DNA of 24,222 bases from positions 1 to 24,222 of the IMG/VR virus record IMGVR_UViG_3300042465_003254; one strand, 5' to 3'. This document shows positions 3,266 to 19,397 of the stretch, in pieces. Origin of the DNA: a virus. The translations under genes were made by a program, and so were the position numbers. Numbering within the stretch: position 1 is the stretch's first letter; each line of letters starts with the position of its first letter. The notes beneath the pieces are model-generated. The model did no database searches. It was not told the origin of the DNA and saw nothing but the letters and a program-made list of their open reading frames with translations.

Positions 3266-4229
3266 TCTCTAGCTTTTTGTTCAGGATTGGAACCAGTCGG
3301 TTACGAACCTCTTTGGCTCCATAATCCCGGATAGAATCTGATGGGTCTTTACTCATAGGTAGAACGGCTGTCAGGATATCAGGATAGAGTTCTTTGTAAC
3401 GTTCCATGGCTTTGATACCGGCTTCGTCAAAGTCAAAAAGAACGATGATCTTCTCATACTTTTTAAAGTATTCGTTCATCAGTTCTTTACGGATCAGACT
3501 GTTCTCAGAGTCAGGAGCAATGTAGTCTACTGATAGCTTCAGGCTCTTTAGGGCCATGATGTCTTTCAGTGAGCTTGTGATCACCAGGAACCGGTGATCT
3601 TTTAGCTGCTCAGAACCCTGGACATAGTCTGAAACTTTGATGAACTTCTTATCATGTGTCTTGGGCTGATAGATCTTGTATAGTGTACCGTCGGCTTTGA
3701 AATACCCGTATAGATACAGACCCCGGATAGTCAGCTGTTTACCATCTTTTTCCATGCAGTAATACTCCAGGGGAACTACCCGGTGTTCACTAAGTAGTTT
3801 ACTGCCTATGTTAAATTTGGTCCAATAAGTCTGATCCTGGGTAGACCAGGACCGGGTAACGATCGAGCTGACTTTATACCGGCTGGACTGTTTGAACTCT
3901 TGTACGTTATACCCGCCGTTGTTATGCAGTACAAAGTCGTTAAACTCTTCGATGACCTGTTGACAGGCTTGATGATAGGGCTTCTGTGTGATCTCTTTTA
4001 CCAGATCAATAGCGTCACCCCACTTGCCGGAAGAGAAGTCTTTGAACTTATATACTTGACGAGCATTGTCAAAGTAGATGCACATAGAAGGCGTGCGTTC
4101 CTTAGTAAACAAGCTCTTGATCTTCACATCATCACCCGTTAACTTTTCTTTGAGCTTACAGTAGTGCTCAAAAATCCACGGTACAGGTACATCTTTGATG
4201 TCATGTACCAAGTTTTTAGTCTTGAACAT
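3261..4229 (-). CDS. DnaG-type primase with variant Toprim domain
   Basis: A 322-residue protein from ATG 4229 (MFKTKNLVHDI); the longer frame to 4337 runs through a terminator hairpin and is rejected. The N-terminal part (SLFTKERTPSM, then a block ending WGDAIDLV) resembles the CHC2 zinc domain of DnaG but lacks its zinc-binding Cys/His residues. The Toprim core is at residues 212-300: VITSSLKDIMAL, where the usual Glu is Ser, then VLFDFDEAG with D266 and D268, then KDPSD at 294-298. It is shorter than bacterial DnaG and has no visible helicase-interaction domain. It would lay RNA primers for the DnaB-like helicase encoded at 6271-7323. Confidence 0.85.
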   Translation of the reverse strand: MFKTKNLVHDIKDVPVPWIFEHYCKLKEKLTGDDVKIKSLFTKERTPSMCIYFDNARQVYKFKDFSSGKWGDAIDLVKEITQKPYHQACQQVIEEFNDFVLHNNGGYNVQEFKQSSRYKVSSIVTRSWSTQDQTYWTKFNIGSKLLSEHRVVPLEYYCMEKDGKQLTIRGLYLYGYFKADGTLYKIYQPKTHDKKFIKVSDYVQGSEQLKDHRFLVITSSLKDIMALKSLKLSVDYIAPDSENSLIRKELMNEYFKKYEKIIVLFDFDEAGIKAMERYKELYPDILTAVLPMSKDPSDSIRDYGAKEVRNRLVPILNKKLEN

Positions 4230-4245
4230 AGTACTGGGATTAGAA

Positions 4246-16418: not shown

Positions 16419-16800
16419 GTCCTACTTCTTCTCCGATCTCCATGGCTGCTTGAATAGCCAGACTTAGCTCATCTTTAGAACACTCAGCAAAACTCTTAGC
16501 CAGGAAGTATTCTTTACCGGATACTTCCCTGGCTATACAGAGTCCTGCTTTATCTTTGACTAAGATCTTCATGTTCTCTACCGTCTCTCCGATATGCATA
16601 GCTAACTGCTTGATTAGAACGTGCAGTTTAGCCAGCTGCGGGAGTGTACCATCATCGTGCTGCTCCTCATAAAAGAACTCTACAATCTGACCCTCCGGAA
16701 TATGTGATACAAACAGCTCGTACTGTTTAGCTGCACTCAGTGAAGCAAACTCCAGGCGGCCGTTACGTTTGACATACTTACCGTTGAAATGAAGATTCAT
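16405..16800 (-). CDS. NinB-like recombination protein (putative)
   Basis: A 131-residue protein. The pattern LHFNGKYVKRNGRLEFAS, then DDGTLPQLAKLHVLIKQLA, then MKILVKDKAGLC and a helical end (ECSKDELSLAIQAAMEIGEE) resembles phage proteins related to lambda NinB/Orf, which help recombination mediators load on SSB-coated DNA. I recognise the overall pattern rather than a catalytic motif, so this is tentative. Its start overlaps the end of the helicase gene by 23 bases, indicating translational coupling. Confidence 0.5.
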   Translation of the reverse strand: MNLHFNGKYVKRNGRLEFASLSAAKQYELFVSHIPEGQIVEFFYEEQHDDGTLPQLAKLHVLIKQLAMHIGETVENMKILVKDKAGLCIAREVSGKEYFLAKSFAECSKDELSLAIQAAMEIGEEVGLMVW

Positions 16801-17920
16801 GACTACTCATGTTTACATCGTGATACTTGATCTTGTTCTGGTCCAGGTCTTTTAAAGCTTCCGTGACCCACCGCTCGTCTACCGTATTCTGGTAGCAGAG
16901 TATGTGCACCACCGCTGTGTCGTCTGGGTTCAGACGAAGCAGACGTCCGATACGCTGTGAACTCTTGCGCTCGTTGCCGTATGCATGCATAATGATCCCA
17001 GCCCGAAGGTTTGGAATATTGATACCCTCGTTGAGCTGCAGTACACAGGATAGCTTGTCAATCTGGTCTTTCTTAAACATGTCAAGGTTTACTTCTGCGT
17101 CTGGGTTCTCGGAGTGTACCGAGTGACTGCATACACGATCTGCCTGGGCTTGGGTGTTACAGAAGACAATACACTTTTCTTCTATTTCTTCCAGTAGATA
17201 CTTGGCGTAGTCTTCTTTGGTTCGAAAGTCCATCAGGACCCTCATTCGCATAACGGACGAGATCTGTTCCTGCTTCTTACTCTGGGCTTCCATGATACGT
17301 TTGCTCCAGTAGTCATAGCTTTTACGCTCAGAGGTCATGAACGTACTGTTCTTCATAGTTACCGGTATCGTATTCTGGGTACTTAATGGCATCCGGTGTA
17401 CGATGATCCGGTAATCATTCAGGATCTGATCATCTACCGCGTCATCGGTGATGTACTTAAACATCACAGGACAGTACTTACCGACGATCCTGCCTTTTTC
17501 ACTGTTGTGATACCGGGGCGGAGTACCCGTCAGACCCAGTACTCTACCGTGGTAGTTAGCCAGGAAAGTTTGATGGGACTCTAAAAGACTGTGACACTCG
17601 TCCAACACCACTATGTCATAGTGATGCGGGTTATGTTTGTTTAGTGATAGATACGTGGTAAAGGTGACCTTCTCTAGGAGTTCCTGGGGAAGGCCAAACT
17701 TTACTGCGTCATCTTGCCAGCTCTGAAATATGCTGAGCTTTGGAGCCACCACCAGCACATTGAGCTTGTACATGTTAGACTGCTGGTAATGGTCCAGGTA
17801 TCGTAGTCCGATGAGGGTTTTACCGACCCCCATGCTTAAGGCTAACGAACAACATTTGTGATTTAAAGCAACTTCTATAGCATCAGCTTGTATACTGTCT
17901 CTTGTATTTTTTTGTTTCAC
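16778..17920 (-). CDS. SF2 DNA helicase (DEAD/H type), probably chimeric 5' end
   Basis: A 380-residue helicase. A Q-motif-like IQADAI (10-15) is followed by Walker A SMGVGKT (29-35), motif II DECH (107-110), motif III TGTPP (131-135) and motif VI QRIGRLLR (322-329), so it has both RecA-like domains. Phage helicases of this type act in replication or recombination. The start is GTG at 17920, inside the 3' end of the GIY-YIG gene, which it overlaps by 38 bases; the ATG one base earlier is in another frame and meets a stop at once. Codons 1-29 are AT-rich like the endonuclease gene, while those after the P-loop are GC-richer. A second 5' fragment of the same gene lies at 18604-18687. Confidence 0.9.
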   Translation of the reverse strand: MKQKNTRDSIQADAIEVALNHKCCSLALSMGVGKTLIGLRYLDHYQQSNMYKLNVLVVAPKLSIFQSWQDDAVKFGLPQELLEKVTFTTYLSLNKHNPHHYDIVVLDECHSLLESHQTFLANYHGRVLGLTGTPPRYHNSEKGRIVGKYCPVMFKYITDDAVDDQILNDYRIIVHRMPLSTQNTIPVTMKNSTFMTSERKSYDYWSKRIMEAQSKKQEQISSVMRMRVLMDFRTKEDYAKYLLEEIEEKCIVFCNTQAQADRVCSHSVHSENPDAEVNLDMFKKDQIDKLSCVLQLNEGINIPNLRAGIIMHAYGNERKSSQRIGRLLRLNPDDTAVVHILCYQNTVDERWVTEALKDLDQNKIKYHDVNMSSHESSFQR

Positions 17921-18545
17921 ATAGCTCTTTTTTAGTAATACATTTCTGTTCAGGTCTAAGCAAGAAATGCCTTTTATATCTACTAACTACTCTTTTGTTT
18001 TTTAAGTTTATAGTACTGTTGACTACGGATTGAGAGTACTTTAGCCCGGGATAAAGCTCTTCTAACTTTTTAGCAGCAGCCCGCTCAGATTCATAAGTTC
18101 CAAAACAGTTACAGTCTATATCGTATATTGTCACTGGTTTTTTTTTATCATCATGCGTAGGATATTTTAATAAACCCATTAACTTTTGCTGTTTTAGAGT
18201 AGCTGAGATTTTTCTTCTAGACTCTTGAGAAGGAGTATTTCTAATAACTTCTAGTGTGATATTATATGCTGGTTCTAGATTATTAATATACTCCTGTTCT
18301 TTTTGGACTAAAAGTTCTACAGGAACTTCTTCAAGAATTGAGACCTCAAAGCAGTTTTTACCATGCTTATTATAACTGTTTTGAAGATGCGGGTTGGCAT
18401 GAATACCTCGTCGCAGCTCTGACTGATGCCGTTTTAACCTATGGTATATATTTTTACTACTACCGATATACTGTTTTTTGTTACTAGTATTAGTTATACA
18501 GTATATACCACAAGTTTTTAAACCAAAAGACCTTGGAATTTTCAT
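17883..18545 (-). CDS. GIY-YIG homing endonuclease
   Basis: A 220-residue protein. The N-terminal nuclease domain has GIYCITN (13-19), QYIGSSKNIYHRLKRHQSEL with R36, the HLQNSYNKHGKNCFE block, and catalytic E72 in ILEEV. Residues 105-118 (PSQESRRKISATLK) look like a NUMOD-type DNA-binding motif, and 140-170 hold a second one (IYDIDCNCFGTYESERAAAK). The region is visibly AT-richer than its neighbours. It lies between a truncated 5' helicase fragment and the intact helicase, whose start lies within its last 38 bases. No intron core fits in the short flanks. The likely homing site is the helicase P-loop codons. Confidence 0.92.
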   Translation of the reverse strand: MKIPRSFGLKTCGIYCITNTSNKKQYIGSSKNIYHRLKRHQSELRRGIHANPHLQNSYNKHGKNCFEVSILEEVPVELLVQKEQEYINNLEPAYNITLEVIRNTPSQESRRKISATLKQQKLMGLLKYPTHDDKKKPVTIYDIDCNCFGTYESERAAAKKLEELYPGLKYSQSVVNSTINLKNKRVVSRYKRHFLLRPEQKCITKKELCETKKYKRQYTS

Positions 18546-18558
18546 AGGGTTTAGATTT

Positions 18559-18591
18559 GTTCTATAATATAATATACTAATATTGTAGAAC
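18559..18591 (-). promoter_or_regulatory. 33-bp palindromic promoter-like region before the GIY-YIG gene
   Basis: The arms GTTCTATAATAT (18559-18570) and ATATTGTAGAAC (18580-18591) pair at 11 of 12 positions across a 9-base AT spacer. On the minus strand it reads TATATTATATTATAGAAC, close to the rightward element at 8673-8690. It lies about 14 bases before the ATG at 18545. It also contains the stop codon of the helicase 5' fragment. Confidence 0.45.
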
Positions 18592-18687
18592 TTTTACAAA
18601 CAAACCCATCGAGATACCCAAGCCACAGCGTTGATGCCTGAAGGCTATCTCCAGGGCTTGATCCTGGATCTCATTACGTTTACTCAT
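18577..18687 (-). pseudogene. truncated 5' fragment of the SF2 helicase gene
   Basis: ATG at 18687, 3 bases after the stop of the preceding gene, opens a 36-codon frame. Residues 7-28 (IQDQALEIAF through GISMG) align without gaps to helicase residues 10-31 (IQADAIEVAL through ALSMG), with 11 of 22 identical and several conservative changes. The match ends at the Met-Gly of Walker A; the fragment continues as LFVKVLQY to a TAG instead of VGKT. Its normal operon spacing and ATG suggest it is the original start of the helicase gene, cut off by insertion of the endonuclease cassette. It cannot encode a functional ATPase. Confidence 0.8.
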
Positions 18688-18690
18688 AGC

Positions 18691-19011
18691 TTACCATTCA
18701 AATCTTTCTTTCTTTACAGGAGTCCAGGTTTCTACCGGAGGATCAATATTGTAATACGCCTGATAGATCAGCTTAAGATTAGCCATGGTCTCTGCATCAG
18801 CATAACCTATGGTACGCTGCAAATCATTGTTCAATACAGCTTGTACAAAACCGCTGTTCTGAAGAAGACGTTTGTCTCTTCCAAGCAACAAGTAAAGCAT
18901 TTGTGTTTTAACCGGTTCAGTAGCTGTATACTTATTACGAGCTAACCAGTAATTGATGTCCCGAGCATAGGCGTTTACGATCTCCTGGGTAGTATTCTCT
19001 GTAACGTTCAT
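18691..19011 (-). CDS. small hypothetical protein
   Basis: A 106-residue, mostly helical protein (NVTENTTQEIVNAYARDINY, then YLLLGRDKRLLQ and LIYQAYYNIDPPVETW). No family recognised. Its start overlaps the HNH gene by 4 bases (ATGA), and the helicase fragment starts 3 bases after its stop, which indicates that the original gene order was HNH, this gene, then helicase. Confidence 0.75.
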   Translation of the reverse strand: MNVTENTTQEIVNAYARDINYWLARNKYTATEPVKTQMLYLLLGRDKRLLQNSGFVQAVLNNDLQRTIGYADAETMANLKLIYQAYYNIDPPVETWTPVKKERFEW

Positions 19012-19397
19012 GTTAATCGGTTTTCTGATAGTCCTAATTCTTTAGCTTCTTCTGGATTATTCTCAGCCCAGGTATGACAGTTACGACACAGAGCTCTCCA
19101 CTTAGACATGTTTAGATAATTATCTCCTACACGACCTGCTGTGTGGTGCACATCGGTAGCCTCCCCGGTACATCCGACCAGTTTGGCCTGACATACCGGA
19201 TTGGCTATCAAAAAGAGCATGCGTTTCTTGCTGTACTCGTCCAGTGCTGTTTTTTGTTTAGCAGACACGGGCTTGAGTTTCTTTGGTTTTTCTATCTTAT
19301 ACCAACACTCTTTGCAATACTTCGCTTTTTCATGGCTCTTCCAGATGTGTTTGAGCTCTTTGCAACCATTACAAGGTTTCAGTTTTGTCTGTATCAC
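19008..19397 (-). CDS. HNH endonuclease with N-terminal zinc motif
   Basis: A 129-residue protein. C9, C12, C28 and C31 (CNGC and CKEC) form a treble-clef-like zinc site. The HNH core is TDVHHTAGRVGD (H84, H85), a helix with the middle Asn, then CRNCHTW with C104, C107 and H108, and finally NNPEEAKELGLS. This layout is common in phage HNH proteins of the NinG/Rap-like or free-standing type. The start is GTG at 19397, since no upstream ATG exists in frame before the stop; it overlaps the upstream gene by 29 bases. It could be a recombination nuclease or a homing enzyme. Confidence 0.85.
   Translation of the reverse strand: MIQTKLKPCNGCKELKHIWKSHEKAKYCKECWYKIEKPKKLKPVSAKQKTALDEYSKKRMLFLIANPVCQAKLVGCTGEATDVHHTAGRVGDNYLNMSKWRALCRNCHTWAENNPEEAKELGLSENRLT

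Follow-up and report, generated by a model that had tools for sequence, protein, structure and literature searches.

Why does a short reading frame that resembles the beginning of a helicase stand in front of an endonuclease gene, when the helicase gene behind that endonuclease gene has a full beginning of its own? The locus that raises this question lies on the minus strand of a virus record of 24,222 bases, which was analysed over its whole length and is here called the window. On this strand, a gene for 106 amino acids (18691-19011) is followed, 3 bases past its stop codon, by the orphan frame (18577-18687), and then by a GIY-YIG endonuclease gene (17883-18545) and an SF2 helicase gene (16778-17920). 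We regard it as very probable that the Walker A codons of this phage helicase gene are the insertion site of a homing cassette, in which the GIY-YIG gene is combined with a diverged copy of the helicase 5' end. The cassette would have arrived by cleavage and homing and would have left a hybrid helicase that still functions. In a single step, it thereby seems to break the helicase gene and to repair it.

The helicase contains ResIII and Helicase_C domains and matches the PHROG family phrog_16 (DNA helicase). Among named phages, related helicases come mainly from Bacteroides and Flavobacterium phages, Cellulophaga phage phi14:2 and uncultured gut phages; 87 named phage records match the helicase protein, all of them with less than 60% identity, and the region has no DNA match in the named phage records. 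No relative was found in bacterial and archaeal genome contigs that were scanned with the endonuclease alignment and with the helicase, and the window likely belongs to a crAss-like phage of a Bacteroidota host. An assembly error is argued against by two contigs from two samples (L003 and L004), which show the same arrangement and contain the window helicase at 99% and the endonuclease at 100% identity. Two genes upstream of the orphan frame, the window also contains an HNH endonuclease-like gene (19008-19397, minus strand; phrog_144).

The orphan frame and the empty site

The orphan frame begins with ATG, comprises 36 codons and reads MSKRNEIQDQALEIAFRHQRCGLGISMG followed by LFVKVLQY. Its codons 1-28 (18604-18687, minus strand) are the displaced native helicase 5' end, and the last eight codons are read-through into the cassette. 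In a gapless alignment with the helicase start of the window, 11 of 22 residues are identical between IQ and SMG, and over the whole fragment the identity to the present helicase start amounts to 12 of 28 amino acids and 42 of 84 nucleotides. A helicase search of the window returned two matches only, the helicase gene itself and the orphan frame (E 3.2e-4), which confirms the preliminary description of a 36-codon frame just past the preceding gene whose likeness to the helicase stops at the SMG of the Walker A motif; it is there that the native 5' end is cut off.

The resemblance between orphan frame and helicase start is not due to chance. In a flank test, which asks whether the DNA upstream and downstream of a GIY-YIG gene encode similar peptides (threshold 26 bits), the orphan/helicase pair of the window reaches 30.8 bits, and at least 30 bits are reached by 22 of 13110 cross-locus pairs, real homologues among them. 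An orphan-like copy of at least 26 bits lies upstream of the helicase in 6 of 9 cassette carriers and in 0 of 56 cassette-free relatives among the matches listed (best 18.1 bits), and a scar lineage that is described below is also without it. This control covered up to 2.5 kb upstream of each helicase, the shortest stretch searched being 357 nt, and within these limits the 36-codon frame was not seen as a separate gene upstream of any of the 56 cassette-free helicases, an occurrence that had been named beforehand as speaking against the insertion.

Decisive for the identity of the orphan frame is the contig L005 from another sample, in which the fragment appears as the true start of a cassette-free, uninterrupted helicase. 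This helicase begins with MSKRNEIQAQALEIAFRHQRCGLGISMGVGKTLIG, and its first 28 codons agree with the orphan frame of the window in 27 of 28 amino acids and 76 of 84 nucleotides, whereas the best cassette-free match of the present, substitute end of the window helicase is 55 of 84 nucleotides; in the comparison of window and L005, the displaced native end stands nearer to relatives than does the substitute. The blastn comparison of L005 with the window gives blocks on the upstream gene, on the orphan frame (91.8%) and on the helicase body (86.1%; the two bodies are 92% identical), and between the matched orphan and body blocks remain 776 bp, 17828-18603, with ends that are uncertain by a few bases because ATGGG is common to both sides. 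The cassette limits proposed earlier, about 17831-18603, come very near to this.

It had also been predicted that in a cassette-free relative the upstream gene is followed directly by one helicase gene, with an N-terminus closer to the orphan frame than to the present start. L005 indeed has a single helicase with such an N-terminus; in one detail it departs from the prediction, as the upstream gene and the helicase are separated by a further ORF. Because L005 shows the predicted orphan-like N-terminus, the joint reading is supported that an endonuclease cassette entered the helicase gene at its P-loop and would have brought a substitute 5' end with it; beside the empty site of L005, eight further lineages with the cassette point in the same direction. 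Uninterrupted helicases that resemble the present start would have argued to the contrary, but of the 56 cassette-free N-termini 47 are closer to the orphan frame, 4 tie and 5 are slightly nearer to the substitute (at most 15 versus 11 of 28 amino acids, in L170). These five show no close kinship to the window in the tree.

The anatomy of the insertion is compact. The endonuclease gene overlaps by 38 nt with the substitute helicase 5' end (17828-17920, minus strand), which comprises 31 codons from GTG to SMG, and the GTG start of the helicase therefore lies inside the 3' end of the endonuclease gene. The hybrid gene (16778-17920, minus strand; 380 amino acids) consists of this substitute end and the native body from VGKT onwards (16778-17827), so that the end of the cassette divides the Walker A codons SMGVGKT (17816-17836) into SMG and VGKT. 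With a GC content of 32% (36% in its substitute end), the cassette is AT-rich compared with the helicase body (47%) and the orphan frame (50%).

Endonuclease and substitute end as a mobile unit

The endonuclease of 220 amino acids matches the Pfam family GIY-YIG (PF01541, E 1.9e-13), the NCBIfam family TIGR01453 (79.1 bits, cut-off 56.05) and homing endonucleases of PHROG, and with a profile of five relatives (A2) it matches the I-TevI catalytic domain structure 1mk0 (E 7.7e-18). R36, E83 and N95 are invariant in all five aligned relatives, and from the 1mk0 alignment and the I-TevI numbering we take them to be the catalytic arginine, glutamate and asparagine. Catalytic residues of these three kinds are named for GIY-YIG endonucleases in PMC2988022. 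The endonuclease is under purifying selection, with a dN/dS of 0.07-0.25 in 10 pairs, several of which are close to saturation at synonymous sites. Two relatives have longer endonucleases with a different C-terminus (L017:1361-2164, 267 amino acids; L109:1708-2514, 268 amino acids), and their overlaps with the helicase start are 11 nt and 14 nt, respectively, versus 38 nt in the window.

Relatives were gathered by searches with the endonuclease and with the helicase, and counts refer to the matches listed. Among these are 66 distinct helicase bodies, namely nine cassette carriers (the window, L014, L015, L016, L017, L021, L022, L024 and L109), one scar (L106) and 56 cassette-free rows, which include the isolate FpV21 (L019) as outgroup. 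The other eight carrier endonucleases are 42-85% identical to that of the window. A quick tree, with long branches for L016 and L024, was built on the helicase bodies with the replaced end excluded; rows with at least 98.5% identity were merged, and L118, which has no usable body, and loci whose match stops short of the Walker A region were left out. On this tree the nine carriers need nine state changes, eight of them forced by starred branches, and since shuffled carrier labels need 8.6 changes on average, the carriers are not clustered. The number stays at nine if the scar is counted as a carrier, and it is a count that is blind to gain versus loss. L021 and the scar L106 are sisters, and one insertion may therefore be shared there, while the sister of the window among the matches listed is the cassette-free L005. 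The cassette thus shows the sporadic presence at one fixed site, with relatives that have the site empty, that is characteristic of GIY-YIG homing endonucleases.

The endonuclease and the substitute end have moved together between diverged phages, as the cassettes of L015 and L021 are alike and their helicase bodies are not. Including the substitute, the two cassettes have an identity of 0.83-1.00 in all 26 bins (30 nt each, the last one shorter), whereas it is 0.57-0.83 in the ten bins of the helicase body directly past SMG and 0.52 in the 60 nt upstream of the cassette; identity hence drops at the outer border as well as at SMG|VGKT. The helicase bodies are 67% identical, and four-fold sites differ at 5 of 63 positions in the endonuclease versus 30 of 60 in the helicase body (Fisher p 2e-7).

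For 7 of 10 substitutes (those of the window, L014, L015, L016, L017, L021 and L106), the nearest DNA among the matches listed is another substitute. The substitute of L109 is nearest to a cassette-free helicase (59 versus 57 of 84 nt), that of L022 is equally near to its own orphan and to a cassette-free helicase (53 of 84 nt), and for that of L024 its own orphan comes nearest (55 of 81 nt, 18 of 27 amino acids). These three are the most diverged cassettes, and that their substitutes are not nearest to other substitutes counts against the homing cassette. Six known members supplied a DNA signature of the substitute, and the 12 viral contigs that it matched were all carriers or of the scar lineage, none of them cassette-free; ten were already known, and the other two belong to the L021 type as additional copies. 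For selection on the substitute itself there is weak support from a pooled pN/pS of 0.47 (10 non-independent pairs over 20 codons). AGC ATG GGG is the cut-site sequence in 5 of 9 carriers versus 2 of 56 cassette-free rows among the matches listed, which is not taken as proof of silent re-coding because the carriers may share it by descent.

The fate of the displaced fragment differs between lineages. The orphan frame is open in six of the nine carriers (the window, L014, L109, L016, L022 and L024). In L015 and L021 only its last codons remain, in L017 it has a frameshift, and the scar L106 lacks it. It thus seems to be dispensable, which counts for the homing cassette. In the scar lineage (L106-L108, about 2455-2585), only the last approximately 28 endonuclease codons still match; behind them come the substitute end and an intact helicase, and both the endonuclease body and the orphan frame are missing. 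As these contigs keep the substitute without the endonuclease body, a replaced gene start can evidently outlive the element that brought it.

In the carriers, codon comparison shows that the substitute end contained in the insert is in phase with the host gene. In 7 of 9 carriers, the distance from the most upstream in-frame start to the serine of SMG is exactly 28 codons; taking the most upstream one as the hybrid start is a choice, as six of the nine have further in-frame starts downstream. This start overlaps the end of the endonuclease gene in all carriers except L022, where an extra ORF (about 3800-4240) separates the two. A glutamine at position 11 is kept in all ten sequences (nine carriers and the scar) and in 54 of 56 cassette-free rows among the matches listed, and it presumably represents the Q motif of SF2 helicases. 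On the basis of the conserved start distance and this residue, it is predicted that the hybrid helicase should work.

Six relatives have a conserved intergenic RNA directly upstream of the helicase region (within L021:1255-1450 and L106:2290-2475, and in L124, L128, L130 and L136 at 2290-2505). RNAalifold predicts 32 pairs, 13 of them with changes on both sides in at least one sequence, and a hairpin with a U run at the end. The four sequences scanned (L021, L106, L124, L136) have no Rfam match, a search of seven relatives, prompted by the conserved RNA upstream of some helicases, found no tRNA, and the pattern of its 19-base core does not occur in the window.

Proposed mechanism and alternatives

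How could such a cassette be installed in an essential gene? During co-infection, the endonuclease would recognize and cut the conserved P-loop coding sequence of a cassette-free phage, and repair templated by the cassette-bearing genome would bring in the endonuclease gene jointly with the substitute 5' end. Upstream, the native 5' end would stay behind as a dead fragment, and the substitute would provide a new start codon, the Q motif and SMG, so that one hybrid helicase is read. As the cassette supplies a complete but diverged 5' end, the invaded gene would stay whole while the site stays split, and the product should escape re-cutting because the substitute DNA differs from the native end and because the site is split. 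Since P-loop codons cannot change freely, few targets would be able to escape by mutation.

What alternatives exist for this mechanism? A group I intron with the endonuclease gene inside would make the orphan frame exon 1, spliced to VGKT, and the AT-rich frame the intron. Joining SMG to VGKT would in fact give back the exact reading frame, and the NCBIfam name of the endonuclease protein is group I intron endonuclease, a family (TIGR01453) that also has free-standing members. However, at the gathering score Rfam found no family in the window or in seven other loci (the carriers L015, L021 and L109 and one scar among them), and a permissive RNA search of 17750-18750 gave five sub-threshold hits, none of them an intron. 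The part of the cassette outside the endonuclease gene amounts to 113 of 776 nt only, compared with a size of 250-500 nt for group I introns (PMC10964413), although an endonuclease frame can overlap an intron core. Moreover, exon 1 is nearly gone in L015 and L021 and frameshifted in L017, so that these carriers do not retain both exons intact, and an intron would have no reason to encode a second, colinear helicase start. We consider an intron to be extremely unlikely.

The orphan frame could also be one part of a gene in pieces, with an orphan peptide that is made and works together with the helicase body, like the split NrdA of phage Aeh1. The open orphan frame in 6 of 9 carriers would fit to this, but the body has a full N-terminus over the same residues, and because orphan frame and present N-terminus cover the same residues instead of complementing each other, a gene in pieces is not supported. 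Since 3 of 9 carriers have a deleted or frameshifted orphan frame and the scar has none, the probability of such a split gene is close to nil. A simple tandem duplication of the helicase 5' end, with the endonuclease gene arriving later and without any single mobile unit, could describe the origin of the first or oldest cassettes, and it agrees with the substitutes of L022 and L024, which are as near or nearer to their own orphans than to other substitutes. It does not account for L015 and L021, where endonuclease and substitute have a common recent history that is distinct from that of the body, nor for the substitute signature being found only with an endonuclease or its remnant (12 of 12 contigs), and none of the 56 cassette-free helicases among the matches listed has a doubled start. 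As a general explanation, such a duplication is therefore highly improbable.

Relation to known systems and other doubled gene ends

The principle of end replacement is already known from 3' ends in fungal mitochondria; here it occurs in phages and with the 5' end. Hybrid genes have been described for atp6 of Allomyces macrogynus and for atp6, atp9, cox2 and nad3 of Glomus sp., where the inserted end was found in the mRNA and the displaced end of atp6 and cox2 was not found there (PMC3630166), and alternative 3' ends have been described for Phlebia radiata (PMC4019555). Like the helicase cassette, the fungal mobile ORFs consist of an endonuclease gene that brings along an in-phase foreign end of the host gene, and the displaced native end is closer to relatives. 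In the fungal systems, however, it is the 3' (carboxy-terminal) end that is replaced, in mitochondria and by LAGLIDADG elements with the exception of atp9, which has a GIY-YIG element (PMC3630166), whereas the helicase cassette replaces a 5' end in a phage, at a helicase P-loop, and provides a new start codon that overlaps the endonuclease gene.

The GIY-YIG endonucleases of T4-like phages (I-TevI, Seg proteins) have the I-TevI-type catalytic domain and the insertion in or near critical genes in common with that of the window, but the passages of the review that deal with them treat co-conversion, introns and split genes (mobE in nrdA, mobA in gene 60, seg43) and not a carried substitute gene end (PMC2988022). 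The part of a survey of phage homing genes that covers islands, introns and domain swaps likewise notes no substitute gene end (PMC10448857). In the titles and abstract beginnings of the literature searched, which lies mostly outside subscription journals, there is no description of end-replacing homing genes in phages. An artificial counterpart follows a similar logic: the HomeR drive also cuts an essential gene, inserts there and carries a re-coded rescue, but it is engineered, based on Cas9, operates in flies and is directed at 3' coding sequence, while the helicase cassette is natural, resides in phages and carries a 5' end (PMC7968924).

The cassette would be a further way for a homing gene to live in an essential phage gene, beside introns, inteins and split genes, and it illustrates how the most conserved codons of a gene can serve as target for an endonuclease that is not housed in an intron, as the repaired end comes along. 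It would be a natural precedent, at the sequence level, for engineered home-and-rescue gene drives, and its outcomes would be legible in wild populations, where it moves between diverged phages, the displaced end decays, and the drive can be lost while the replaced end is kept. Some of the short orphan ORFs and of the doubled gene starts that appear in phage annotations would find their explanation here as well.

Is the helicase a single case? The flank test, which is applicable to any genome set, was carried out on 71 distinct loci and then on an enlarged set of 115, where same-locus pairs reached at least 26 bits at 16 loci, compared with 59 of 13110 cross-locus pairs (Fisher p 2e-18, a rough value because cross-locus pairs are non-independent and some are real homologues). 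The test misses carriers with a decayed orphan; of the nine helicase carriers, five reach 26 bits. The 16 loci comprise these five helicases, nine apparent replaced gene ends and two that were not accepted, L309 and L278, which exceed 26 bits and were judged to be unlike gene ends. L040 remained under the threshold with 23.9 bits.

Doubled 5' ends were found for PurA (L089), GroEL (L303), a GH19 endolysin (L270) and an unknown protein (L085), and doubled 3' ends for a glycosyltransferase (L083, L098), a 5'-3' exonuclease (L047), a GNAT-domain protein (L031) and, more weakly, an HNH gene (L308); L083 was named by eye from its likeness to L098, and L308 from its likeness to the window gene at 19008-19397. 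In case of PurA, orphan and substitute are identical in 12 of 12 amino acids, and 9 of 36 nucleotides are changed, all of them silently. The cassette-free PurA gene of L180, which matches the orphan in 33 and the substitute in 27 of 36 nucleotides, represents the empty site and confirms this case. Among the eight candidate gene families besides the helicase, PurA alone has such an empty-site check; L085 is without one because the scan for relatives of its gene returned only the L085 locus. In L083, nothing is re-coded, as the two copies are identical over the last 16 codons. Taken together, these loci suggest that other phage GIY-YIG genes may also replace the ends of unrelated genes, and we tend to the view that phage GIY-YIG homing genes often are natural home-and-rescue drives, which insert in genes, often at conserved or catalytic codons, together with a diverged or re-coded copy of the 5' or 3' end. 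In phage FpV21 (KT876726; L019, 1-2104), a hypothetical protein that matches GIY-YIG is encoded between two CDS that are annotated as putative DNA polymerase, and this pair is perhaps another interrupted gene.
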